From: a virus
IMG/VR virus record: IMGVR_UViG_3300010354_014451
Coordinates: 1 to 34,074 of that record
DNA: 34,074 nucleotides
Direction: 5' to 3' (one strand)
Each line of letters starts with the position of its first letter. Positions within the stretch are counted from its first letter, which is position 1. Below, piece after piece: positions 5,001 through 34,074 of this stretch. A program made the position numbers and the translations under genes. Below the pieces are notes generated by a model that was not told where the DNA came from, did not search any database, and saw nothing but the letters and a program-made list of their open reading frames with translations.

Positions 5001-5508
5001 AACCTCTACAAACCCAGCACTTAACATTGGGCGTCTTGTTGCTCTTGCAAATATACGACTTGCACCAGGTGTTGAAAACTCACAAGCTGGTCCGTTTGGA
5101 GGACGCGATCTACAAAATCGTATGCAATTATTACCGATCGCAGTGGATATTATTAATAACGCTGCAACTACTGTTGAAATTCGAAGCAATTGCACACTAG
5201 TTGGACAACGTTGGCAACCTGCTGGTAGTGGTAGTCTTGCACAATATGACGCTTCTGCAACTGACCTAGTTGGTGGTGATGTTGTGTTTGCAAGTTCTAC
5301 ACCTACACCTTCTAATGCTACAGCAGGTTCTTTACAGGTTACAACATTTGACCTTAAAACTCTAAGAGAACTTAACAACAGCGTTCTAGGAGGAGATAGA
5401 ACTTTCCCTGACGGTCCAGACGTTTACACATTTGTAATTAAATCTAATCCTAATATTGCAAGCACGAGCTGCGATATTACATTTAGATGGGCTGAGCAGC
5501 AGTCATAA
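2095..5508 (+). CDS. Large virion structural protein with beta-sandwich repeats
   Basis: 1137 residues, the longest gene here. No enzyme motif was recognised. At least three internal units share a pattern: hydrophobic start, HGL.xGq.V.v..., a short insertion, NGxFxx.....sFTy (around residues 265-310, 450-485 and 525-560). These units resemble the HGLxxGDxVxI repeats found in many phage tail and structural proteins. The C-terminal part is rich in Gly, Asn and aromatic residues. It lies 13 bases after the fibre gene and is closed by a strong hairpin terminator directly at its stop codon, so it ends the tail transcript. Likely a long tail-fibre, whisker or baseplate-associated component. The exact role is inferred. 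Confidence 0.6.
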   Translation: MAKILLPEYTFNAATKTVTVPKDVDLTQFLLITNVTRNEIIYSFADPTLGGTASQAAVSYSGISITLTNASNVVVVNTPNTVIKVSSGWVLTSAALPGGSATVQTIDVASNKVYIDKLASSGTTTTGTFTSTEPNRAHTELVLDFDTQAAGHNNADKLQIFIDSGETEEEQISFEDRFIDPVDKIRVSTPQSMIDTDFEYGTQPSRWETLARVCNYPSVFPKGVGAKTNTIEWQSFAPRDERGFNVLDIYSIQCGASSKVATVHCRSGHGLNIGDIVFIQGAPEPNTLLNGHFFVQSITNVSFTITTYAAANFNNGSATTALPNPGIGGASNSYGSGQTFSFAAVDNSANRVGGSFITDGYRVGQIVTVSGSRSGNNARYLITSITATKITFDNRNVVANETPSGYTPTLSAVAQVQSFGCYNSTELPGVSSVIGNGANQVTVTTNVPHGLLTGQVIVVQNSNNAPANGTFFITSTPTVDSFTYNTITTTVNGNIFQYQIYVPIVVPATVSGNGTNSTVTITTPAPAWHGFSSGQNVDVRIINAPNFLASGLYTATATGNDTLTYTASGTIGAGQFNCAVFIQARGYVIHRPFDGGCEMGPNTTNAHEEVIRQTRRYFRYQSGKGFQTSFGLRLNTPSGATSGHRLRAGHFDSQNGVFIEYDGQVTYFVRRNSTKQLAGTVAVTLGSQVVNGTGTSFTDPNSGVGTIDANDPKYIVIRGKSYQVVRVVSDSQCVITPAYRGSTELGNVVVSRTIDYKIPQQAWNLDKCDGTGPSGFNYQANKMNMIYMDWHWYGAGNVRYGFKNKKGEIFYAHKIVHSNVIDEAYFRSGNLPLRYQVTNGTQGATGGAAPILAHWGTSAIMDGRFDEDRGYTFAFNNVQKTIGQIVISGGASGSTVFDPIDNSLTISGTADFTAVGYGAAENNRIGPVQIGAVLVISGVGGSGNNNGLYQIIGVQNKKLFLAGKQVESQTSTNPALNIGRLVALANIRLAPGVENSQAGPFGGRDLQNRMQLLPIAVDIINNAATTVEIRSNCTLVGQRWQPAGSGSLAQYDASATDLVGGDVVFASSTPTPSNATAGSLQVTTFDLKTLRELNNSVLGGDRTFPDGPDVYTFVIKSNPNIASTSCDITFRWAEQQS

Positions 5509-5533
5509 AAAAAGCCCCATATGGGGCTTTTTT
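5508..5533. terminator. Bidirectional rho-independent terminator
   Basis: A perfect 26-base palindrome, six A, GCCCCAT, then ATGGGGC, six T. It begins at the stop codon of the 1137-residue protein and reaches the stop codon of the convergent gene 5532-5834. The A-tract on one side and T-tract on the other let it terminate transcription from both directions. Confidence 0.92.
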
Positions 5534-5834
5534 ATTTGTAGTATTTGCTTTCATCTATATGAACATTTGGTGCATTGAGCAACATCCATTGTTCCATAAC
5601 TTCTTTACATTTTGCTAAATGTTCTTGAGCTCTAACATGGTCCATATGCCCAACTTTAGCAGGTCCTCTAAAACCCATTGCTACACATTCATCAAAGTTA
5701 TGGACAGCCTCTTTGAGATTTTCAAAAAGACGCTCTCCTTCTTCTCTGAGTTCACCGCTAACGCAGCAAACACCAAGATAGAATCTTTCACAATCGGCCT
5801 TAAATCTGGGTAAATCTTGAACTCTGCTTAACAT
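5532..5834 (-). CDS. Hypothetical protein, 100 residues
   Basis: Not recognised. A soluble, mostly helical-looking protein with several Cys and His (FYLGVCCVSGEL near residue 20, HMDHVRAQEHLAKC near 65-75). It is the only minus-strand gene in the first 10 kb, converges on the virion protein gene, and shares the palindromic terminator with it. Its ATG is preceded by GAGGAAA. The divergent gene at 5857 starts only 22 bases away, so the two starts share one tiny intergenic region. Minus-strand orientation suggests different timing from the late tail genes. No function is proposed. Confidence 0.7.
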   Translation of the reverse strand: MLSRVQDLPRFKADCERFYLGVCCVSGELREEGERLFENLKEAVHNFDECVAMGFRGPAKVGHMDHVRAQEHLAKCKEVMEQWMLLNAPNVHIDESKYYK

Positions 5835-5843
5835 ATTTTCCTC

Positions 5844-5851
5844 GATAAATA
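5844..5851 (+). promoter_or_regulatory. T4-type late promoter (GATAAATA), leaderless
   Basis: GATAAATA followed by TTCTT and the ATG of 5857. In T4 late promoters the octamer ends about six bases before +1, which puts the predicted start exactly at the ATG. No Shine-Dalgarno sequence is present. It is embedded in the 22-base divergent spacer. Confidence 0.6.
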
Positions 5852-5856
5852 TTCTT

Positions 5857-6183
5857 ATGACTCCCTTATTTAATTATGAATCCGACCTAAGGCTATTAAC
5901 TCCTGGGCAGTATGTTTTGGACGAATTTGACGCAGCTGAATTTCCAGGAGGGACTTACCTTGTTGTTGCAAAAAATAGAGACGGTAAAACGGAGTTCACT
6001 GAATTTTTTCTAACACACAATTCTGTTACCGGATTTATCACCAATGTGCGCTGCACAAGTGATGCAGCCAATTTTTTAACTAATTATTCTTCAACTATAA
6101 TTAGGCATAATCTACGATTAACCGTTACAGTAACCGAAGATGTAAGAATAAAATTTTATAGATTTTTAGTGAGCATAGAATGA
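5857..6183 (+). CDS. Hypothetical tail-cluster protein, 108 residues
   Basis: Not recognised. The composition (alternating hydrophobic strands, FPGGTYLVVAKNRDGKTEF near residues 29-47) suggests a small beta-rich domain; no Cys-rich or membrane segment except one Cys. Start chosen at 5857 because the late-promoter octamer GATAAATA lies five bases upstream, which predicts a leaderless message. The gene overlaps the next fibre gene by four bases (ATGA), so the two are probably translated together. Context suggests a fibre-associated or assembly protein. Confidence 0.65.
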   Translation: MTPLFNYESDLRLLTPGQYVLDEFDAAEFPGGTYLVVAKNRDGKTEFTEFFLTHNSVTGFITNVRCTSDAANFLTNYSSTIIRHNLRLTVTVTEDVRIKFYRFLVSIE

Positions 6184-6795: not shown

Positions 6796-7353
6796 ATGTT
6801 AGGTATTGAAATGATTGGTGTTCTACCAATCGGAATGGACACAGGGGTTCCTAACTTATATGAAGAAGCAAGGATAGTAGAAACTGAAATTGCTGCTGTT
6901 GATATCAAACAGGTAATTCTAAACAGCATAGAATCACCAATCCTTTTATTAGATGATAGTGCTACACATAACACAGTAAAAACAAATGTTGCAACTCTGT
7001 CTAGTGAGATTGCAGCATTAGATGTATACTATAGAGTATTTGGTTACACTAATGAGGATGTAAGTCTTGAAGTAGCTGCTACTGACTTTCATAATTTACT
7101 GTTATATGTTTTAGATCCTGCCCAATTAGCAATTTTTAGCGATGTTAGCGGTGGCGCCAGCCAGAGTCTTCAACAGTTTAGCTCTCTTGAATTAGAATTA
7201 AACACAACAAACTTTGAAAGTTTTTATACGCTTAATCTACAGGAATTTGACAATAATCCTATTCGATTAGAAATTGGCGGAACCAGTGGAGAATTATTAG
7301 TAATAGCCGGCGGCGGAGCTCCAGCAGAAAAACCACAGATATGGATAGGCTAA
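6796..7353 (+). CDS. Hypothetical tail-associated protein, 185 residues
   Basis: Not recognised. Acidic; the first 30 residues carry IGVLPIGMDTGVPNLYEEA, the middle has Thr/Asn-rich and helical stretches, and the end has a glycine cluster (LLVIAGGGAPAEKP). It begins one base after the short fibre gene behind GGGGG, and its stop codon overlaps the start of the bilin reductase gene (TAATG). Co-transcription with the tail genes is clear. Whether it is a virion protein or a fibre chaperone cannot be read from the sequence. Confidence 0.65.
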   Translation: MLGIEMIGVLPIGMDTGVPNLYEEARIVETEIAAVDIKQVILNSIESPILLLDDSATHNTVKTNVATLSSEIAALDVYYRVFGYTNEDVSLEVAATDFHNLLLYVLDPAQLAIFSDVSGGASQSLQQFSSLELELNTTNFESFYTLNLQEFDNNPIRLEIGGTSGELLVIAGGGAPAEKPQIWIG

Positions 7354-8036
7354 TGGAATCACGCATCTGGGAAACACTGATAGATATTCAAAATCTTTTA
7401 ATAGATAGTTTCAACCATACAGGAATTGAAATTGAAGAACCAGGTATGGAAAGATTTAATCAGCCAGGATGGGTAAATCGTGTATGGACTAGCGAAATAT
7501 ACAGACGAGCACATATCGATGTAGTTGACGCTAGACAAAACAAAGGTCTATGGATGATGCATTGTTGTATCTTCCCTCATCTACATAATCCAGGTCCTAT
7601 CTATGGATTTGATGTTATAGCAGGAAAAAATAAAATTACAGGCTGTTTTCATGACTTTAGTTCTGCTGGCGACTTTAATCATCCTATGATACAGTGGTTT
7701 GGTAATCATGTTAGAGGTTACGAATGGTCTAAGGAGAGAACATTGCCTGAATGGGCTAGGAACATTTTCAGTCCTTATATGATTGCAGCAGGCAATGTGC
7801 ATAATGATATAGAACTCGAAACCATATTAGAAATCAGTAAAAAAACTACAAAATATTACCTAGAACACATCGGAAATTACAATAATCACCATGAAAATAC
7901 TATAGAATTCCAAAATTTTTATTGTATAAATCAAAAAAAGAATCCTCATACCCCTAGGGTAATGTCTAGCCTAGGACTTAATCAAGAAGATGTCACAGTT
8001 TTCATACAGGATTGTTTGTTTCCAGAGGCAAAATAA
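7353..8036 (+). CDS. Ferredoxin-dependent bilin reductase, copy 1 (PcyX/PebS/PcyA superfamily)
   Basis: 227 residues from the ATG in TAATG. An upstream in-frame ATG at 7341 is possible, but 7353 aligns better with the second copy at 33384. FDBRs reduce biliverdin or its products with electrons from ferredoxin. The signature MHCCIFPHLHNPGPIYGFD carries His70 and Asp87, 17 residues apart, the same spacing as the catalytic His88 and Asp105 of PcyA. Other family traits are RRAHID at 51-56, LPEWARNIFSPYMIAAGN in the second half, and a YCINQKKNP segment near the C-terminus. It is coupled to a tail gene, not to a heme oxygenase. About two in five residues match copy 2 by eye. Substrate and product cannot be assigned from sequence alone. 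Confidence 0.88.
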   Translation: MESRIWETLIDIQNLLIDSFNHTGIEIEEPGMERFNQPGWVNRVWTSEIYRRAHIDVVDARQNKGLWMMHCCIFPHLHNPGPIYGFDVIAGKNKITGCFHDFSSAGDFNHPMIQWFGNHVRGYEWSKERTLPEWARNIFSPYMIAAGNVHNDIELETILEISKKTTKYYLEHIGNYNNHHENTIEFQNFYCINQKKNPHTPRVMSSLGLNQEDVTVFIQDCLFPEAK

Positions 8037-8039: not shown

Positions 8040-8046
8040 TTAGATT

Positions 8047-10218
8047 ATGACAGAAAATGAAATAAAAGGAGCTCCAATAATCTATCTTGATATGGATGGC
8101 GTTCTAGCAGATTTTGACGAAGCATATCATAGAAAATTTGGTCAGGCACCTGCACCTACTGCCAAAGAGGATCCCTATATTCAGCAATTAAGGGGTTCGG
8201 ATTTTTTTGCTACTCTCAATAAATTACCAGATGCTGATAAAGTTGTCTCTCTTGCTAAGAAATTTGGTAATGGAAAATACAGTATTTGCTCAAGTCCATT
8301 GAGAGACGATATTAAAAATACGTCACATTGGAAGGCTGTTTGGTTAAAGAAACACTACGGCAGTTCACCCCCTGAGCATATGGTGTTTACAGGTAAAAAA
8401 GACAGCTATGCAGTTAGGGGAGATCAGTGGAATGTGCTCATAGATGATAAACCTAGAAATATTGATGCATGGAACACTCGTGGCGGTAAAGGAATATTAT
8501 ATAATGGCTATACAGATAGCATCGAATACCTTGAAAGCGAATTAAAAAAAATTTTTACCAACGATAATGCAGAAGTAAATGAAGATTCCGATGATTCAAA
8601 AAAAAATGAATTCAAGGAAATGTTTGGTAATTTCTTACCAATAGCCATTGAAGTTCTTCATTTAAAGTCACTTCCAGAATTTCATTTTGAAGCATTTTTA
8701 GATCATCCTCATCAACCAACTTTTGGCATGTATGTTAACGGCGAGAATAAACTTTATGTAGGATTAAGTGGTCGACATCCTAATGATATTCTTAGAACTA
8801 TTGCACATGAGTTAACTCATTATAAACAAGATACCGAACATAAACTTGACGATAATAGCGGAAGAACTGGTAGTCCTGAAGAAAATGAAGCTAATTCTGT
8901 AGCAGGAGTGATAATGAGGATTTTTAACAAAAAATATCCTCATTATCTAAAAAGTAAACCTGTTATGGAATCTGAAACAGATGAAAGTCTTAAGGGAATT
9001 GCCGCAGCAGGATTATTAGGATTAGGAATGTTAGGTGGTCCAAAAGATGTAGCCAGTGGTAACCTACCACAAGATCTACAAAAGGCACAGCAGCAACATC
9101 GTGTTCAAATGGCCAAGAAACCTATGGCCAAAACCGCAGTGGCAAAACCAGCGGCAGCAAAACCTTTGCCTGCCAAAGCAACACCTTTATTAAAAGTAGC
9201 TAAGGCTAATGGTATTACAGGTGTAGAACTGGCACAATTTTTAGCACAAATGGAACATGAAAGTCTTGATTTTAAGAAGATGAAGGAAATAGGTAAATCT
9301 ACCTACTTCAACAAATATGATAATAAACTTGGTAACAAGTTCAAGGGTGATGGGGCACAATTTAGAGGTCGTGGTTTTATACAACTAACAGGCAGAGGAA
9401 ACTACACACAGGCCAGCCGTGATATATTTGGAGATGATCGTCTAGTGAAGAAACCAGACCTAGCAGCACAACCAGATATAGCCGCACGTATAGCAGTTTG
9501 GTATTGGACTGATCGTGTGAAACCTTTGGTCAAAGACTTTTCAGATACTACTCGTGTTACAAAGATTATCAATGGTGGTCTAAATGGCCTGCAAGATAGA
9601 GAAAATAATTTTAGAGATTATATGGCTAGCCTTGGCCTAATGGAAAAATGGTCAATGAAGTATAAAAAGAGCATCAACTGTGCCAATCCTAAAGGCTTTA
9701 GTCAACGTGCTCATTGTCAAGGTCGTAAGAAAACAGAAGATGTAGAACAAGATCCTGGACAACCAATACCATTTCCTGCAGGAACAACTTCTATAGACGT
9801 CAGTGATCCATACGATTGGTATAAATTAGGTATGGTTATTAGCGACTTAGATGATGCTAATCCTAAGGCATTTGGTAAAGGAGGGCCTAGCACCGTTATT
9901 GCGTTTGGTAGTGAAGATGAGGAGCATAGATTATTACCCCATCTTAAACGATTAGGACTTAAATTACAAGATATAGATAAGCCATCAGATACTGAAAAAA
10001 TTGTTCCTGCAAAAGCAGTATTAGACAAGTTTGAAGAAAATTTTGCTGATGGTCGTAACCCACAGGACAAGGGCGACAGCGGTAGACATGGCATTAAAAA
10101 AGGTATTTCAATAGCACAACTAAAAAAGATTAGATCCAGTGACTCAGCTAGCCCAAGAAAAAAGCAGTTGGCACACTGGCAGATCAATATGAGACAGGGG
10201 CGTAGTAAAAAAGGATAA
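8047..10218 (+). CDS. Multidomain fusion: HAD nucleotidase, zinc peptidase, GH19 lysozyme-like
   Basis: 723 residues. Residues about 10-165: HAD-type 5'(3')-deoxyribonucleotidase-like domain (IIYLDMDGVLADFDEAY, CSSPLRD, VLIDDKPRNIDAW). Residues about 190-300: gluzincin-like domain with His254-Glu-Leu-Thr-His258 (IAHELTHYKQ) and a downstream SPEENEANS that could supply the third ligand. An Ala/Lys/Pro-rich linker at about 345-380 follows. Residues about 385-545: GH19 chitinase/lysozyme-like fold (AQMEHES with Glu403 and Glu405; RGRGFIQLTGRGNY). The C-terminus has INCANPKGFSQRAHCQGRKK and a basic DSGRHGIKKGISIAQLKK region seen on other marine phage proteins. Likely a virion-associated or lysis enzyme acting on peptidoglycan. 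The nucleotidase is unexpected in that setting. Expression is from a near-leaderless late promoter. Confidence 0.85.
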   Translation: MTENEIKGAPIIYLDMDGVLADFDEAYHRKFGQAPAPTAKEDPYIQQLRGSDFFATLNKLPDADKVVSLAKKFGNGKYSICSSPLRDDIKNTSHWKAVWLKKHYGSSPPEHMVFTGKKDSYAVRGDQWNVLIDDKPRNIDAWNTRGGKGILYNGYTDSIEYLESELKKIFTNDNAEVNEDSDDSKKNEFKEMFGNFLPIAIEVLHLKSLPEFHFEAFLDHPHQPTFGMYVNGENKLYVGLSGRHPNDILRTIAHELTHYKQDTEHKLDDNSGRTGSPEENEANSVAGVIMRIFNKKYPHYLKSKPVMESETDESLKGIAAAGLLGLGMLGGPKDVASGNLPQDLQKAQQQHRVQMAKKPMAKTAVAKPAAAKPLPAKATPLLKVAKANGITGVELAQFLAQMEHESLDFKKMKEIGKSTYFNKYDNKLGNKFKGDGAQFRGRGFIQLTGRGNYTQASRDIFGDDRLVKKPDLAAQPDIAARIAVWYWTDRVKPLVKDFSDTTRVTKIINGGLNGLQDRENNFRDYMASLGLMEKWSMKYKKSINCANPKGFSQRAHCQGRKKTEDVEQDPGQPIPFPAGTTSIDVSDPYDWYKLGMVISDLDDANPKAFGKGGPSTVIAFGSEDEEHRLLPHLKRLGLKLQDIDKPSDTEKIVPAKAVLDKFEENFADGRNPQDKGDSGRHGIKKGISIAQLKKIRSSDSASPRKKQLAHWQINMRQGRSKKG

Positions 10219-11540: not shown

Positions 11541-11548
11541 AATAAATA
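11541..11548 (+). promoter_or_regulatory. T4-type late promoter (AATAAATA)
   Basis: AATAAATATTATT lies 17 bases before the ATG at 11566, with AAGGAA between. This copy yields a short leader that includes a ribosome site, unlike the leaderless copies. Confidence 0.5.
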
Positions 11549-11853: not shown

Positions 11854-11861
11854 GATAAATA
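11854..11861 (+). promoter_or_regulatory. T4-type late promoter (GATAAATA)
   Basis: GATAAATAA, 50 bases before the ATG at 11912. It would start a leader holding the 11871-11888 hairpin and a good ribosome site. Confidence 0.5.
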
Positions 11862-12340: not shown

Positions 12341-12366
12341 AAAAAGCGGCTCCGGCCGCTTTTTTT
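12341..12366 (+). terminator. Rho-independent terminator
   Basis: AAAAAGCGGC, loop TCCG, GCCGCTTTTTT. It ends the single-gene 11912 unit and precedes the late promoter of 12401. Confidence 0.92.
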
Positions 12367-12369
12367 ATC

Positions 12370-12377
12370 TATAAATA
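12370..12377 (+). promoter_or_regulatory. T4-type late promoter (TATAAATA)
   Basis: A perfect TATAAATA 23 bases before the ATG at 12401 and immediately after the 12341 terminator. It restarts late transcription for the 12401-13965 gene run. Confidence 0.65.
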
Positions 12378-13498: not shown

Positions 13499-13965
13499 AT
13501 CGAAGCCCTCAGGAAATTATCCTAGAAATTCAAAAAATTAATCAGCGTGTTACTACAGAACTACGCAAAAAAGGCTATGTTCCTGCTAGAAAGATTTCAG
13601 ACGGTTCTACAAAAATTGGTAACTTTATTATTAAAAAGCACGATAATGGAACCTACTTTATCATTGATATAACAGGTGAAATAATTGTAGAAAATATTAA
13701 TTTGCCTCATACCGCTGCTGTAGTTGCTAATAGATTAGCACTAGGATTTTATTCAGATAAGAGTATTTTAGATGTAGATCGCAGATATGGGCATTACAGC
13801 TTTGACGAACAGCTATATAGAGCTAATTTTAACAGAACTTTCAAAGACAAACAGTATGATAGGGCCGAAATTTTAATAGAAAAATTTAGAATAGCTAAAT
13901 TAAAGAAAGAATCTTGTCGTCAGAAGATAGTAGACGGGTTTAACAAACTTGTAAAAACGGCATAA
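13495..13965 (+). CDS. Hypothetical protein, 156 residues
   Basis: Not recognised. An N-terminal helix (SPQEIILEIQKINQRVTTEL) is followed by a strand-rich middle (GNFIIKKHDNGTYFIIDITG) and a basic helical C-terminus. It overlaps the preceding gene by four bases and lies just before the 499-residue protein at 13993. The stop codon sits inside a late-promoter octamer (CATAAATA). Proteins with the same plan are frequent in T4-like marine phages and lack assigned roles; that is recollection, not a search result. Confidence 0.65.
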   Translation: MNRSPQEIILEIQKINQRVTTELRKKGYVPARKISDGSTKIGNFIIKKHDNGTYFIIDITGEIIVENINLPHTAAVVANRLALGFYSDKSILDVDRRYGHYSFDEQLYRANFNRTFKDKQYDRAEILIEKFRIAKLKKESCRQKIVDGFNKLVKTA

Positions 13966-13968
13966 ATA
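13961..13968 (+). promoter_or_regulatory. T4-type late promoter-like octamer (CATAAATA)
   Basis: CATAAATA overlaps the stop codon of 13495-13965 and lies 24 bases before the ATG at 13993. C at the first position departs from the T/G/A seen elsewhere, so it is weaker. Confidence 0.4.
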
Positions 13969-16588: not shown

Positions 16589-16596
16589 GATAAATA
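16589..16596 (+). promoter_or_regulatory. T4-type late promoter (GATAAATA)
   Basis: GATAAATATTCTATAAGGGG lies 21 bases before the tailspike ATG at 16618 and includes the AAGGGG ribosome site. The promoter core is the same as that of the leaderless sites, but here it has a leader. Confidence 0.6.
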
Positions 16597-25761: not shown

Positions 25762-25769
25762 AATAAATA
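25762..25769 (+). promoter_or_regulatory. T4-type late promoter (AATAAATA), leaderless
   Basis: TAATAAATATCTC then ATG at 25774. The predicted +1 falls on the start codon. No SD. Confidence 0.58.
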
Positions 25770-25773
25770 TCTC

Positions 25774-26841
25774 ATGACCAAAAATTCTGAGGTATTGCTA
25801 GCCTATTTGGCTTTAATTACTGGCCTTGCTATTTCAGGCGTGGCTGTCTACTATAGTGTTGTTGGATTAACAGCGATTTTTGCTGCCGCGGCTATACCCA
25901 TTATAATTATGGGTGTTACGTTAGAACTAGGCAAATTAGTTGCCACTGTTTGGCTCAAACAGAATTGGCACATAGCACCTAATACAATAAGAATTTATCT
26001 TATTTGTGCTATCGTGCTTTTGATGGCAATAACTAGCATGGGCATTTTTGGATTCCTCAGTAAAGCCCATAGCGATCAAAGTTTAGTCAGTGGAGATGTA
26101 TTATCTAAGTTAGCAATTTATGAAGAACAAATTAAAACTGCCAAGGAAAATATTCAAGAGAAACGCAAAGAACTTAAACAAATGGACGAGGCAGTGGACC
26201 AAGTTATGGCACGATCGCAGGACGAAAAAGGTGCTGATAAATCCATTGCTCTACGTAAGAGTCAGCAAAGGGATCGCGCTCGTATTTCCAAGGAAATTGA
26301 AGCCGAACAGGCACGACTTAGTGAACTTAGTAACCAAGCCTTACCTTTACGAGAAAAAGTTAAAGAGGTTGAGGCAGAAGTAGGGCCATTAAAATATATT
26401 GCGGCCTTTGTCTATGGTGAAACTGATCAAACAGTTTTAGAAAAATCTGTTACATGGGTTATAATTTTATTGATAATAGTGTTTGACCCTCTTGCTATTA
26501 TTTTATTGTTAGCAAGTCAAATAAGTTTTCAAAATTTAAGAAAACAATCACCACTGTATAGTGAACTACAACCTATTATTGAAGAACCTAAAAAAACAGA
26601 AGAACATGTAGTTGAAACCAAAATTCAGGAGCAACCTGAAGAACCTGTGGTAAGTAATGCTGAGGCTGTTGACCCTTGGTCAAACAATGATCCTCACATA
26701 AAAATAAGTCCAAAAGAACATAAAGGGGGAAGTGTGTTGATTGACTACTATGCTAAGATGATTAAAAGTAATCAATTGACTATCAATCAAATTCCTACCG
26801 CATTGTATACGCAGGTTAAAAACAAACTACATGAAAAATAA
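25774..26841 (+). CDS. Membrane protein with long periplasmic or cytoplasmic coiled coil
   Basis: 355 residues. Hydrophobic spans at about 8-28 (LAYLALITGLAISGVAVYYS), 32-50, 72-92 (YLICAIVLLMAITSMGIFGF) and 225-248 (WVIILLIIVFDPLAIILLLA). Between them, residues about 108-195 form a charged coiled coil (KENIQEKRKELKQMDEAVDQ, ARISKEIEAEQARLSELSNQ). The C-terminal 100 residues are acidic and then end in a helical DYYAKMIKSNQLTINQIPTA module. The topology, four spans flanking a coiled-coil loop, suggests an envelope sensor or a lysis-control or superinfection-exclusion factor. No family is recognised. Leaderless late promoter. Confidence 0.75.
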   Translation: MTKNSEVLLAYLALITGLAISGVAVYYSVVGLTAIFAAAAIPIIIMGVTLELGKLVATVWLKQNWHIAPNTIRIYLICAIVLLMAITSMGIFGFLSKAHSDQSLVSGDVLSKLAIYEEQIKTAKENIQEKRKELKQMDEAVDQVMARSQDEKGADKSIALRKSQQRDRARISKEIEAEQARLSELSNQALPLREKVKEVEAEVGPLKYIAAFVYGETDQTVLEKSVTWVIILLIIVFDPLAIILLLASQISFQNLRKQSPLYSELQPIIEEPKKTEEHVVETKIQEQPEEPVVSNAEAVDPWSNNDPHIKISPKEHKGGSVLIDYYAKMIKSNQLTINQIPTALYTQVKNKLHEK

Positions 26842-27235
26842 AATAACTCTAATAACGCCTCCTGACTTCTTTGAAAATTCTTCATTTAGCCTTTTACTAC
26901 TAGATATTACAGATGCCGATCAAATAACTGTAACAAATTGGTTAAGTAAAAGCGATCAAGAAAAAGATCTTAATCTTTACTTCTATAGTCAAAACAAAGA
27001 TGCTAAATGGATGTTGTCTGCATTTAATAAAGCAGATTTAGTGTTTGTTGATTTAGATAATCTTTCACCTGATATTGTTTTATTAGCAGGTTATCTATTG
27101 TCTAATCCAAAAGTTTTCTTTCAAAGTCGTAAAGAAGAAAATGTTGAAGCAGTAAAGTTTATTAATACTAATCAAGTTCCTGATGTAAGATATTTTTTGG
27201 ACGAAGTTCTATTAGCAAAATTTCTTGATAAATAA
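26831..27235 (+). CDS. Hypothetical alpha/beta protein, 134 residues
   Basis: Not recognised. Rossmann-like alternation of strands and helices (NKITLITPPDF, FSLLLLDITDADQIT, KADLVFVDLDNLSPDIVLLA) with no catalytic motif seen. It overlaps the membrane protein gene by 11 bases and lies before rpsU. The strand-loop pattern may suggest nucleotide or sugar binding, but this is open. Confidence 0.68.
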   Translation: MKNKITLITPPDFFENSSFSLLLLDITDADQITVTNWLSKSDQEKDLNLYFYSQNKDAKWMLSAFNKADLVFVDLDNLSPDIVLLAGYLLSNPKVFFQSRKEENVEAVKFINTNQVPDVRYFLDEVLLAKFLDK

Positions 27236-27246
27236 TTTTTTTGGTT

Positions 27247-27480
27247 ATGAGTAAAACAAAAATTCTAAACGGTAACAAAGTGATATGCGGTGAAATGCCA
27301 ATTAATACCGCTTTGAAAAAATTCAAACAAAAGGTCGACGACTCTGGTATTTTGGAAGATCTAAGAAATCGAATGTTCTTTGAAAAACCAACGACGGAAA
27401 GAAAACGCAAAAAAGGTGCTGCTAGAGCACGATGGCTTAAAAAACTAAAAAGCCAAGAGCTGCCTAAGAAAATGTATTGA
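27247..27480 (+). CDS. rpsU: Ribosomal protein bS21
   Basis: 77 residues from the ATG at 27247. The core (PINTALKKFKQKVDDSGILE, DLRNRMFFEKPTTERKRKKG, then AARARWLKKLK) matches bacterial bS21, including the EKPTTERKRKK motif. In bacteria bS21 sits on the 30S platform near the 16S 3' end and helps mRNA initiation. Phage copies are known in pelagiphage-type and other environmental phages and may replace host S21. It is complete and basic, so probably functional. No clear ribosome site; AT-rich upstream. Its stop overlaps the -35 box of the next promoter. Confidence 0.93.
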   Translation: MSKTKILNGNKVICGEMPINTALKKFKQKVDDSGILEDLRNRMFFEKPTTERKRKKGAARARWLKKLKSQELPKKMY

Positions 27481-29897: not shown

Positions 29898-29905
29898 TAT
29901 AAATA
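29898..29905 (+). promoter_or_regulatory. T4-type late promoter (TATAAATA) for dnaK
   Basis: A perfect TATAAATA 78 bases before the dnaK ATG, in a 106-base non-coding gap. It implies a leader of about 70 bases, longer than others in this window. Confidence 0.65.
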
Positions 29906-29983: not shown

Positions 29984-31873
29984 ATGAGTAAAGTCATCGG
30001 TATCGACCTCGGCACCACCAATAGCTGTGTTGCAGTAGTTGAAAATGGAACCCCAAAAGTAATTGAAAACTCAGAGGGTGCAAGAACAACACCCAGTATT
30101 ATTGCATACGGTGAGGAAATCCTTGTAGGAGCTCCTGCAAAACGCCAAGCAGTTACAAATCCCAAAAACACTATCTACGCTGCTAAACGTCTAATTGGAC
30201 GTAAATTTAAAGAAGACGCAGTTCAAAAAGATATTAACCTAATGCCCTATTCAATCGTTGAAGCATCTAATGGAGATGCTTGGATTGAAGCTAACGGACA
30301 AAAATTAGCCCCTCCCCAGATTTCTGCAGAAGTCCTTCGTAAGATGAAGAAGACTGCAGAAGATTATCTAGGGTCAGAGGTTACCAAGGCGGTAATTACT
30401 GTTCCTGCTTACTTTAATGATAGTCAGCGACAGGCAACTAAGGACGCTGGTCGCATTGCCGGTCTTGAAGTGCTACGTATTATTAATGAACCTACAGCAG
30501 CCGCTCTTGCCTATGGTGTTGACAAGCAAGACAAGAAAGATAGAAAAGTTGCAGTCTATGATCTAGGTGGCGGAACATTTGATATTTCAATTATTGAAAT
30601 CGCTAATGTAGACGGCGATAAACAAATTGAAGTTCTGAGCACTAACGGTGATACTTTCTTAGGCGGTGAAGACTTTGACCAAAGAATCATGGATCATTTG
30701 GTCAACGAATTCAAAAAGGAGCAAGGAGTTGACCTAACTAAGGATGTTTTGGCACTCCAACGTTTGAAGGAAGCAGCTGAAAAGGCTAAGATTGAATTGT
30801 CTAGTAGTCAACAGACCGCAGTGAACTTGCCATATATTACAGCAGACTCCAGCGGACCTAAACACATGAATATCAGTATTTCAAGATCAAAACTTGAATC
30901 TCTAGTTGATGATCTTATTCAACGCAGTATAGAGCCTTGCAAGACCGCAATGAAAGATGCTGGTGTAACTGCTGCTGATATCGATGAGGTTATTCTTGTT
31001 GGCGGCATGACTCGCATGCCTAAGGTGCAGTCAGCAGTTGAACAATTATTTGGTAAAGCACCTCGTAAAGATGTAAATCCAGACGAAGCAGTTGCAGCTG
31101 GTGCTGCTATTCAAGGAAGTGTTTTAGCAGGCGAACGTAAGGATGTTCTTCTTTTAGATGTTACTCCTTTGAGTTTAGGTATTGAAACTCAAGGCGGAGT
31201 AATGGCAAAGTTAATTAAAAAGAATACTACAATCCCTACTAAGACCAGTGAAACGTTTAGCACCGCCCAAGATAATCAACCAGCCGTAACTATCAAGGTA
31301 TTTCAAGGAGAGCGAGAACTTGTGGTATATAACAAAATGTTAGGAGAATTTAATTTAACTGATATTGAACCTGCGCCGAGGGGTATGCCGCAAATTGAAG
31401 TTACTTTTGACGTAGATGCTAACGGTATCCTTAATGTAACGGCAAAAGACAAGAAGACAGGTAAGCAGAATAATATTACAATTAAGAGCAGTAGCGGTCT
31501 ATCTGAAGCTGAAATTGAGCGTATGGTCAAAGAAGCAGAAGACAATGCCGAATCCGATAAAAAGCAACGTGATCTAATCATGGCAAGGAATCAAGCAGAA
31601 AGTCAAGTTCATGCTGTAAGAAAGGATTTGAAAGATTTTGAATCTAAAATTAAGGATGAAGAAAAGTCAAAAATTGAAGAGGCAATCAAAGAACTTGAAA
31701 CAGCTATGAGTGGCGATGATGTTGAAAAAATTAATAAACTCGCAGGAGAATTGTTTACAGCATCTATGCCTTTGATTACTGTTAAACAAGAAAAAGATAA
31801 AGAAGCTCAAACTACACAATCAACTAAGGATGATAATGTAGTAGATGCGGAATTTACTGAAAAGAAAGACTGA
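29984..31873 (+). CDS. dnaK: Hsp70 chaperone DnaK
   Basis: 629 residues from the ATG with GGAGAAAAAG upstream; a TTG 60 bases earlier is unlikely. Complete bacterial DnaK: phosphate-1 [41 protein letters not shown], phosphate-2 [28 protein letters not shown], interdomain [13 protein letters not shown], substrate-binding domain to about 500 and a helical lid. The end [11 protein letters not shown] keeps the VDAEF tail of proteobacterial DnaK. It folds nascent or stressed proteins with DnaJ and GrpE, which are not encoded here and would come from the host. Full-length DnaK is unusual in phages. Followed one base later by a 52-residue gene. Confidence 0.97.
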
Positions 31874-32546: not shown

Positions 32547-32554
32547 ACTAAATA
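32547..32554 (+). promoter_or_regulatory. T4-type late promoter-like octamer (ACTAAATA), leaderless
   Basis: ACTAAATATAATT then ATG at 32560. The predicted +1 coincides with the ATG, and no SD is present. The octamer departs by two bases from TATAAATA. An alternative reading, TATAAT at 32553-32558, is too close to the ATG to be its -10. Confidence 0.45.
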
Positions 32555-32559
32555 TAATT

Positions 32560-32865
32560 ATGAGCACAGAACACGTTTTAGAAAAAACGCCTAAAGTTTT
32601 TGAAAGAAATAAATCTCCAAAAAAATACAAGGTCATTTTTCTAAATGACGACTTCACTCCAGTTGAATTTGTAATAGTGCTGCTTATGAAGATCTATAAA
32701 CACCCTGAAAGTGTTGCTAGAGAAATCACTATGAAAATCCACAACGAAGGTAGCGGTGTTGCTGGTATATATTATTTTGAAATAGCTGAACAAAAAATGG
32801 CCGAGTCTATTGGATTGGCTCGAACAAATAATTTTCCATTAGATATTAAATTAGAACCGGAGTAA
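32560..32865 (+). CDS. clpS: ClpS N-degron adaptor
   Basis: 101 residues. The ClpS core is complete: KVIFLNDDFTPVEFVIVLL (Asn and Asp that hold the N-degron amino group), KIHNEGSGVAG with the conserved His, YYFEIAEQKM and a C-terminal LDIKLE. ClpS hands proteins with destabilising N-terminal residues to ClpAP and blocks other substrates. Where E. coli has the gating Met40, this protein has Val. No clpA or clpP is in the window, so it would act on the host protease. Starts from a leaderless late promoter after the hsp20 terminator; heme oxygenase follows after one base. Confidence 0.92.
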   Translation: MSTEHVLEKTPKVFERNKSPKKYKVIFLNDDFTPVEFVIVLLMKIYKHPESVAREITMKIHNEGSGVAGIYYFEIAEQKMAESIGLARTNNFPLDIKLEPE

Positions 32866-32866
32866 C

Positions 32867-33409
32867 ATGAGTCTTAAAGAAATTACTAAAGAAAAGCATG
32901 CCGAAGCTGAATCAACACCGTTTATGAAGGCAGTATTTGCTAGAAATTTACCACACGACCTTTGGATTGATTGGACTAAACAAAAGTCGCTTTTCTATAA
33001 TGTTATAGAATATCATGCTGAAAAATTAGGTTTGTTAGATAATTTAAACAGCATCAAGCGAAGTTATTTCCTTAGTCAAGATTATGCGCTGATGAATAAG
33101 AGTAGATTGATACACTCCTATCGTAAACCTGTTATTGCCTATGTGGACTATCTAAACAGCATAGCAGAAGATCCTAAAAAAATTCTAGCGCATCTTTACA
33201 CATGGCATATGGGAGATATGTTTGGCGGTCAAATGATTAAGAAGATTGTTCCTGGTAGTCATTTAAATCTTGAATTTGAGAATTTGCCTCAACTAATGCA
33301 GACTCTTAGACAAAGGTTAACTGATGATATAGGAGATGAAGCGATTAAGGCTTTCGAATGGGCTATTATAATGATGAGGGATTATGACACACATTTGGAA
33401 CAAAATTGA
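32867..33409 (+). CDS. ho1: Heme oxygenase (biliverdin-producing), compact form
   Basis: 180 residues, shorter than cyanobacterial HO1 of about 240. The proximal heme ligand lies in KEKHAEAESTPFMKAV (His11; H-xxx-E-xxxx-M spacing as in HO1), and the distal helix is LAHLYTWHMGDMFGGQMIKK (Gly-Asp-x-x-Gly-Gly, where HO1 has GDLSGG). The reaction opens heme to biliverdin, CO and iron with reducing power from ferredoxin. SD CCGGAG. Overlap of 26 bases with the FDBR gene shows a two-gene bilin operon. Heme must be supplied by the host. Confidence 0.93.
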   Translation: MSLKEITKEKHAEAESTPFMKAVFARNLPHDLWIDWTKQKSLFYNVIEYHAEKLGLLDNLNSIKRSYFLSQDYALMNKSRLIHSYRKPVIAYVDYLNSIAEDPKKILAHLYTWHMGDMFGGQMIKKIVPGSHLNLEFENLPQLMQTLRQRLTDDIGDEAIKAFEWAIIMMRDYDTHLEQN

Positions 33410-34055
33410 AGAACTAGCACGATATTTAGAACAACGTTTTAACGCCACAGGAGAACCTATAGAGGGTAAACTCAATGAAAAATATGACTGGGAAAATACT
33501 CTTTGGTCTAGTATTAGATATCGTAGGGCACATATAGAAATTGTAGATAAGAGAGACACAAAAGGGATTTATATTTTACATTCTACTGTGTTCCCTCATT
33601 TTAATGATCCTAGTCCAATATGGGGTTTTGATGCTATATGCGGAAAAAATAAGATAACTGGCGCATTTCACGATTTCAGTGCAGCAGGAGACAGCAATCA
33701 TTTCATGATGCAATGGTTCGCTGATAATACTAAACATTTACTGTGGAGCAAACCTAGAGAACTTCCTGTTTGGGCTAAACAAATTTTTAGCCCTAGTATG
33801 ATAGCAGCAGGTAATTTACAGGAAGAAAATGAGATTGATCTTTTATGTAGCACAGCTCTAACTTCCTTAGATTATTATCTAGAGAATGTAGGACTAACGC
33901 AGATTAGCGGAGGTGACTACCATATGGCGCAAAATCGATACTGCTATTATCAAAAACAAAACCCACAGGTAGTTAAAAGTATGGTTGCTTTAGGTGTTCC
34001 GGAAATCACTATCAATAAATTTGTTGAAGAAATTTTGTTTCCAGAAACTGTATAA
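33384..34055 (+). CDS. pcyX: Ferredoxin-dependent bilin reductase, copy 2 (PcyX-like)
   Basis: 223 residues. Signature LHSTVFPHFNDPSPIWGFD carries His66 and Asp83, 17 apart as in PcyA His88/Asp105. Other shared family segments: RRAHIEIVDKR, GKNKITGAFHDFSAAGD, LPVWAKQIFSPSMIAAGN, and RYCYYQKQNP with a C-terminal EEILFPE. The pairing with a heme oxygenase matches published marine phage ho1-pcyX pairs; PcyX makes phycoerythrobilin from biliverdin in published work. Product here is inferred. It overlaps heme oxygenase by 26 bases, and its stop lies within the next late promoter. Copy 1 lies 25 kb upstream. Confidence 0.9.
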   Translation: MTHIWNKIEELARYLEQRFNATGEPIEGKLNEKYDWENTLWSSIRYRRAHIEIVDKRDTKGIYILHSTVFPHFNDPSPIWGFDAICGKNKITGAFHDFSAAGDSNHFMMQWFADNTKHLLWSKPRELPVWAKQIFSPSMIAAGNLQEENEIDLLCSTALTSLDYYLENVGLTQISGGDYHMAQNRYCYYQKQNPQVVKSMVALGVPEITINKFVEEILFPETV

Positions 34056-34058
34056 ATA
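34051..34058 (+). promoter_or_regulatory. T4-type late promoter (TATAAATA)
   Basis: A perfect TATAAATA containing the stop codon of the second bilin reductase. Predicted +1 is two bases before the ATG at 34066. The sequence ATAAATATTCTATTATG matches the site at 8033 at all but two positions. Confidence 0.65.
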
Positions 34059-34065
34059 TTCTATT

Positions 34066-34074
34066 ATGCGAGCC
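34066..34074 (+). CDS. Start of a gene running off the window
   Basis: Only three codons (M-R-A) are visible. It is called because its ATG sits at the same place, two bases after the predicted +1, as the gene behind the other bilin reductase. Nothing can be said about the product. Confidence 0.35.

Follow-up and report, generated by a model that had tools for sequence, protein, structure and literature searches.

The window, by which we mean the whole 34,074-nucleotide stretch analysed (IMG/VR virus record IMGVR_UViG_3300010354_014451, from an aquatic T4-like phage), carries nearly all of its genes on the + strand. They encode, among others, an Mtd_N-type tail protein, a virion structural protein, ribonucleotide reductase, DnaK, ClpS and bS21, together with a heme oxygenase (32867–33409) and two bilin reductases (7341–8036 and 33384–34055). 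Octamers of the T4 late-promoter kind stand in sense orientation upstream of late genes, both here and in related phages. The features that concern us are listed below, with the gap being the number of bases between an octamer and the start codon that follows it and SD denoting a Shine-Dalgarno site.

5508–5533, + strand: intrinsic-terminator-like hairpin at the end of the upstream operon
5532–5834, − strand: divergent 100-aa ORF with its own AGGA-type SD
5844–5851, + strand: late-promoter octamer GATAAATA, gap 5 to ATG 5857
5857–6183, + strand: predicted leaderless late gene, 108 aa
8032–8039, + strand: octamer AATAAATA, overlapping the end of a bilin-reductase gene, gap 7 to ATG 8047
8047–10218, + strand: late gene with a predicted leader of 0–3 bases, 723 aa, NT5C-type nucleotidase and GH19/endolysin domains
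11541–11548, + strand: octamer with leader and SD, gap 17 to ATG 11566
11854–11861, + strand: octamer with SD, gap 50 to ATG 11912
12370–12377, + strand: octamer preceded by a terminator (12341–12364), gap 23 to ATG 12401
13961–13968, + strand: octamer CATAAATA, gap 24 to ATG 13993
16589–16596, + strand: octamer with SD, gap 21 to ATG 16618
25762–25769, + strand: octamer AATAAATA, gap 4 to ATG 25774
25774–26841, + strand: predicted leaderless late gene, 355 aa
27227–27234, + strand: octamer GATAAATA of the bS21 gene, gap 6 to a TTG and 12 to an ATG
27241–27480, + strand: phage ribosomal protein bS21 (PF01165, E=1.4e-14), likely start ATG 27247
29898–29905, + strand: octamer, gap 78 to the DnaK ATG 29984, AAGGAG present
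32547–32554, + strand: variant octamer ACTAAATA preceded by a G+C-rich hairpin, gap 5 to ATG 32560
32560–32865, + strand: predicted leaderless gene for a ClpS adaptor (PF02617, E=1.5e-24)
34051–34058, + strand: octamer TATAAATA, overlapping the end of the second bilin-reductase gene, gap 7 to ATG 34066
34066–34074, + strand: start of a late gene truncated by the window end; the context matches that in relatives G001 and G002 (gap 7, 373 aa)

The 108-aa gene at 5857–6183 lies downstream of the terminator at 5508–5533, 22 bases from the ATG of the divergent ORF, and has no PHROG or Pfam match. No relative of the gene at 25774 was found in a scan of viral contigs. The product of 8047–10218 fuses a 5′-deoxynucleotidase domain with a GH19/endolysin domain in a single 723-aa protein. 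Both bilin-reductase genes terminate within the late promoter of a close-spaced gene, in the manner of a duplicated cassette.

A previous sequence-only reading of this DNA had picked out octamers close to the start codons at 5857, 8047, 25774 and 34066, and a weaker one at 32560. All five are confirmed at gaps of 4–7, with NATAAATA 4–7 bases 5′ of the first four ATGs and the C-variant ACTAAATA 5 bases 5′ of ATG 32560, and none of these five starts has an SD site, as that reading had also claimed. The copies it placed farther upstream, at 11541, 11854, 12370, 16589 and 29898, do lie at gaps of 17, 50, 23, 21 and 78, and most have the ribosome site it ascribed to them (an SD for 11541, 11854 and 16589, and AAGGAG for 29898). 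To these we add the octamers at 27227 (bS21 gene) and 13961 (CATAAATA). In total NATAAATA occurs 11 times in the window, on the + strand in all 11 cases and never on the − strand. The number of octamers is not above chance (10 copies of DATAAATA on both strands, against a shuffle mean of 12.4); it is their placement relative to ATG that exceeds chance, with three complete close NATAAATA starts in the window where permuted heptamers give an expectation of 0.32 (Poisson p = 0.004). From the window alone this excess is suggestive, and it is the relatives that decide.

We examined octamer spacing in related phages, of which G001 and G002 are the closest found, by scoring ATGs that open at least 40 codons at gap d and comparing the counts with those for the other 20 permutations of the heptamer, a control that is conservative because some permutations overlap the true motif. 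Pooling the window with five relatives and 159 loci gave 757 distinct octamers. The first ATG lies at a gap of 3–8 in 202 of these, at 9–16 in 25 and at 17–30 in 237, so that the two peaks predicted for a distance scan are clear in the relatives. The close starts obey a sharp spacing rule and the permuted heptamers have no such rule. Octamers at gap 3–8 number 13 of 29 in G001 (0.72 expected), 9 of 31 in G002 (0.86), 17 of 72 in G003 (1.95), 6 of 35 in G006 (0.90), 17 of 58 in G014 (1.78), 12 of 45 in the pelagimyophage HTVC008M (1.28) and 8 of 56 in Mosig (2.04), also a pelagimyophage. The methylophage Melnitz has three close starts for 42 octamers, all at gap 5 (p = 0.001), and PA5oct has five for 145, again all at gap 5, of which just two have ORFs of at least 60 codons.

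The close class is at background in several other phages. None of the 65 T4 octamers lies at gap 3–8 to an ATG ORF; 24 of the 65 lie at 17–30, and 22 of these have an SD. Background levels were also found in the cyanophages Syn9 (0/38), S-CRM01 (1/41) and B23 (3/85), for which 1.0–2.1 are expected, in 121Q (2/55) and in Atu_ph07 (3/125, 3.1 expected). A noisier raw pattern count over 32 records, made with no ORF test and with the reversed motif as control, agrees in the main: G004 has 28 matches versus 4 in the reversed control, and there is no excess in P-SSM2 (6 versus 9) or S-PM2 (4 versus 6). Its noise is apparent in Atu_ph07 (24 versus 14) and CM1 (12 versus 6). We therefore reject the idea that a leaderless class is general to T4-like phages, since T4, Syn9, S-CRM01, B23 and 121Q lack it. 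The close class is lineage-specific, belonging to the freshwater jumbo group of the window and the pelagimyophages, and so marks certain lineages only.

The position of the octamer relative to the close ATG is precise to the base. In T4 the octamer spans −13 to −6 (PMC1524935), which places +1 six bases past its last base. Applying T4's own +1 to these phages, whose gp55 proteins have diverged, puts the predicted transcription start exactly on the A of the ATG at 5857 and 32560, at 8045 and 34064 for the ATGs at 8047 and 34066, and at 25775, one base inside the ATG at 25774, where transcription probably begins one base before that. The earlier placement of the T4-type +1, at or within two bases of the start codon, stands. 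At 80 loci with a pelagiphage-type gp55, 44 of 204 octamers are at exactly gap 5 (0.5 expected), with only 0–2 octamers at each of the gaps 3, 4, 6, 7 and 8; at this gap the T4 +1 would coincide with the first base of the start codon. The same gap is found in 19 of the 23 close starts of HTVC008M, Mosig and Melnitz pooled. Among the 193 octamers of freshwater gp55 loci the close gaps are more varied, with 13 cases of gap 4, seven of gap 5 and five of gap 7. At gap-7 starts the three bases 5′ of the ATG are A-Y-Y in 25 of 41 cases, compared with 41 of 237 far-class starts. The base five past the octamer is usually A, a pattern that fits transcription beginning at this A, so that gap-7 mRNAs would probably not be strictly leaderless and would carry three bases ahead of the AUG.

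The heptamers CTAAATA and GTAAATA are also enriched in the relatives 4–7 bases 5′ of ATG (53/587 with 11.9 expected, and 42/398 with 8.0 expected, respectively), identifying the 32560 site as a legitimate variant. Close and far classes alike accept C or G in place of A at the second octamer position, and this equal tolerance of A, C and G argues for one promoter. An A/U-rich sequence adjoining the AUG could instead be a translation element, unstructured and S1-binding, and not a promoter at all. We consider this very improbable, because permuted heptamers made of the same letters give no peak, because the far class bears this motif too, with equal tolerance at its second base, and because an enhancer of translation would need no single exact gap.

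The two spacing classes differ in their translation signals. In the jumbo clade, SD sites precede 5 of 65 close starts versus 64 of 84 starts at gaps of 17–30 (Fisher p = 4e-18), and in HTVC008M they precede 2 of 12 close versus 5 of 5 far starts. The split is weaker in freshwater gp55 loci (6/26 close versus 40/73 far), and in marine gp55 loci the counts are 7/47 close and 5/20 far. With two peaks and SD sites nearly confined to the far one, the earlier suggestion of two translation modes served by one promoter type is supported.

The jumbo-clade close starts comprise 65 ATG, three TTG and no GTG codons; near-cognate AT-rich codons also occur in the close position, at chance level. That the close ATGs are true start codons is indicated by several lines of evidence. 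Between G001 and G002 the gap is identical in 8 of 8 aligned ortholog pairs, and substitutions in codons 2–30 of these pairs fall 17/9/89 at codon positions 1/2/3, so that there is codon-position bias from codon 2 onward. This count leaves out the pair G001 57158/G002 53729, which is not orthologous at the start, and a more distant G001/window pair (8/5/12). The close ATGs coincide with the depositors' annotated starts in 8 of 8 cases in Mosig and 3 of 3 in Melnitz. All start codons considered here are predicted ones, and it could be argued that the first ATG is unused and the true start lies farther downstream with an SD. The bias from codon 2 in the eight ortholog pairs and the independent annotation of all 11 Mosig and Melnitz cases make this a most unlikely explanation. 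HTVC008M, Mosig and Melnitz all have a gp2-like gene at gap 5, and the proteins it encodes are about 40% identical. Spacing can also switch, or the octamer be lost, since orthologs of gene 25774 have a gap of 4 in the window, 5 in G001 and G002 and 17 in G006, and lack the octamer in G003 and G014.

The surroundings of the close starts bear on whether translation is coupled to the preceding gene. In 28 of 65 jumbo-clade close starts a same-strand upstream stop is no more than 20 bases away, so that translational coupling could help there, and in the window the starts at 8047 and 34066 are about 10 bases past a stop. The close octamers might accordingly be promoters whose short transcripts are minor, with the proteins made mainly from read-through mRNAs coupled to the upstream gene. 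This is improbable, though the strongest of the competing accounts, given that another 28 of the 65 are free of any same-strand stop in the 50 bases before them, that gene 5857 is preceded by a terminator as well as a divergent gene, and that coupling leaves the base-exact gap of 5 unexplained.

We think it very likely that a single class of T4-type late promoter drives both leadered and leaderless late mRNAs in these phages. Both kinds of mRNA would share the promoter consensus N[A>C,G]TAAATA, at which host RNA polymerase carrying a phage gp55-like sigma would start RNA synthesis 5–6 bases past the octamer. Where the ATG is 17–30 bases or more away, the transcript would have a leader with an SD and be translated by the usual initiation route. 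Where it is 4–7 bases away, the mRNA is predicted to start at the AUG or at most three bases before it, with no SD, and the ribosome would recognise the 5′-terminal AUG directly.

A gp55-like late sigma is present as an open frame of 280–303 aa in the larger relatives (198–383 kb). All nine IMG/VR relatives that reach 198 kb or more have it, as do all five reference phages; the window is a fragment of 34 kb. Judged by the gp55 of G006, the closest phages in culture are jumbo phages, Pseudomonas PA5oct among them. Single models of the T4-type gp45 clamp and gp33 co-activator, one for each protein, match T4, Syn9, HTVC008M, Mosig and Melnitz, with no match among seven jumbo-clade records or in PA5oct. 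The products of the close class include late virion parts, namely gp25, tail tube, gp2, tape-measure-like and baseplate-wedge proteins. Five phages from two lineages (G001, G002, G003, G014 and Melnitz) encode a protein that combines CHASE2 with an adenylate/guanylate cyclase (L208:4109-6160 in G001), and its gene is close-spaced in all five. An N-terminus resembling MR(x)(x)E(F/L/I) is common to the close-spaced genes G001 19970, 31172, 57158 and 85683, G002 53729 and window 34066. We take these N-termini to be reminiscent of the capsid-targeting sequences of T4 internal head proteins.

The heme oxygenase and bilin reductases might suggest a cyanophage. We reject this assignment because the DnaK of the window (29984–31873) has its best cellular matches in Burkholderiales, at up to 75% identity, and because the SAR11 phage Mosig has both kinds of gene. 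The likeness of the phage and Burkholderiales DnaK proteins suggests a betaproteobacterial host, and our guess is a freshwater member of the Burkholderiales.

The distribution of bS21 is of interest in relation to the leaderless class. The protein is encoded in 16 of 38 records scanned (11 IMG/VR relatives, HTVC008M, Mosig, Melnitz, PA5oct and Atu_ph07) and was not found in T4, in the five cyanophages Syn9, S-CRM01, B23, P-SSM2 and S-PM2, or in KVP40, 121Q or CBB. Across the 16 ORF-tested genomes, which represent only two or three independent lineages, an excess at gap 5 or gap 3–8 is found in 10 of 11 carriers (weakly in PA5oct) and in none of five non-carriers. This co-occurrence suggests a link with altered translation initiation. 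We offer the link as a hypothesis in view of the few independent lineages and of Atu_ph07, which has bS21 and no leaderless class, so that bS21 as a strict correlate is rejected. Late control of bS21 everywhere is likewise rejected, as an octamer lies 5′ of the gene in few genomes: only the window, G001 and G002 in a scan of 11, and Atu_ph07, where one upstream octamer was seen by eye. The absence of bS21 from all 21 gp55-anchored fragments is uninformative because the two genes are far apart, and tblastn with the window bS21 was not sensitive enough to enumerate further carriers. A phage IF3 as helper can be dismissed: IF3-like genes occur only in the jumbo T4-like phages 121Q, CBB, XaC1 and Atu_ph07 (4 of 38 records), and the two ORF-tested carriers, 121Q and Atu_ph07, lack the leaderless class. 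According to a published comparison (PMC7029224), S21 belongs to the pelagimyophage core and is what chiefly sets these phages apart from cyanomyophages in respect of translation. Chen et al. 2022 (PMC9723584) propose that late in infection phage bS21 serves to select phage mRNA. We can imagine, as a rather long shot, that the phage bS21, which lies next to the anti-SD, takes the place of its host counterpart and biases initiation towards 5′-terminal AUGs, so that late virion genes with gap-5 promoters are selectively translated. If true, bS21 and the leaderless class would together make up a single switch in late translation, each supplying half of it.

Our search of the literature, which covered few subscription papers, turned up no description of T4-type late genes with leaderless mRNAs. 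Phage transcripts are described as 'often leaderless' in general in PMC5312081, and the available text of PMC9723584 has no mention of leaderless, promoter, gp55 or sigma factor. According to PMC7029224, pelagimyophage late promoters were not predictable by the methods used for cyanophages, a failure that a leaderless late class may help to explain. A promoter-wide leaderless class, if true, would have a single sigma factor supplying both routes of translation initiation, with spacing alone deciding between them. Such a class would concern some of the commonest aquatic phages, and it makes the reason why phages carry bS21 directly testable.

Late transcription in T4 is a textbook system, the mRNAs of which are taken to have leaders with SD sites. 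The phages described here resemble T4, with its TATAAATA promoters and gp55/gp33/gp45, in the octamer, its sense orientation, the late structural genes it serves and the gp55-like sigma of the window's relatives; they are unlike T4 in that T4 has no leaderless class. The window and its relatives share bS21 with the bS21-encoding phages of PMC9723584, but the hosts predicted there are Bacteroidetes. The NATAAATA late promoters of the cyanophages S-PM2 and Syn9 have the same degenerate first base (PMC2984593). Close spacing in Syn9, S-CRM01 and B23 is, in contrast, at background. Leaderless mRNAs occur in phages and bacteria, lambda cI being one example. The transcripts predicted here would share with them a 5′-terminal AUG, and they likewise have no SD. 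The known leaderless phage cases are, to our knowledge, single genes, whereas here leaderless mRNAs would form a promoter-wide late class.
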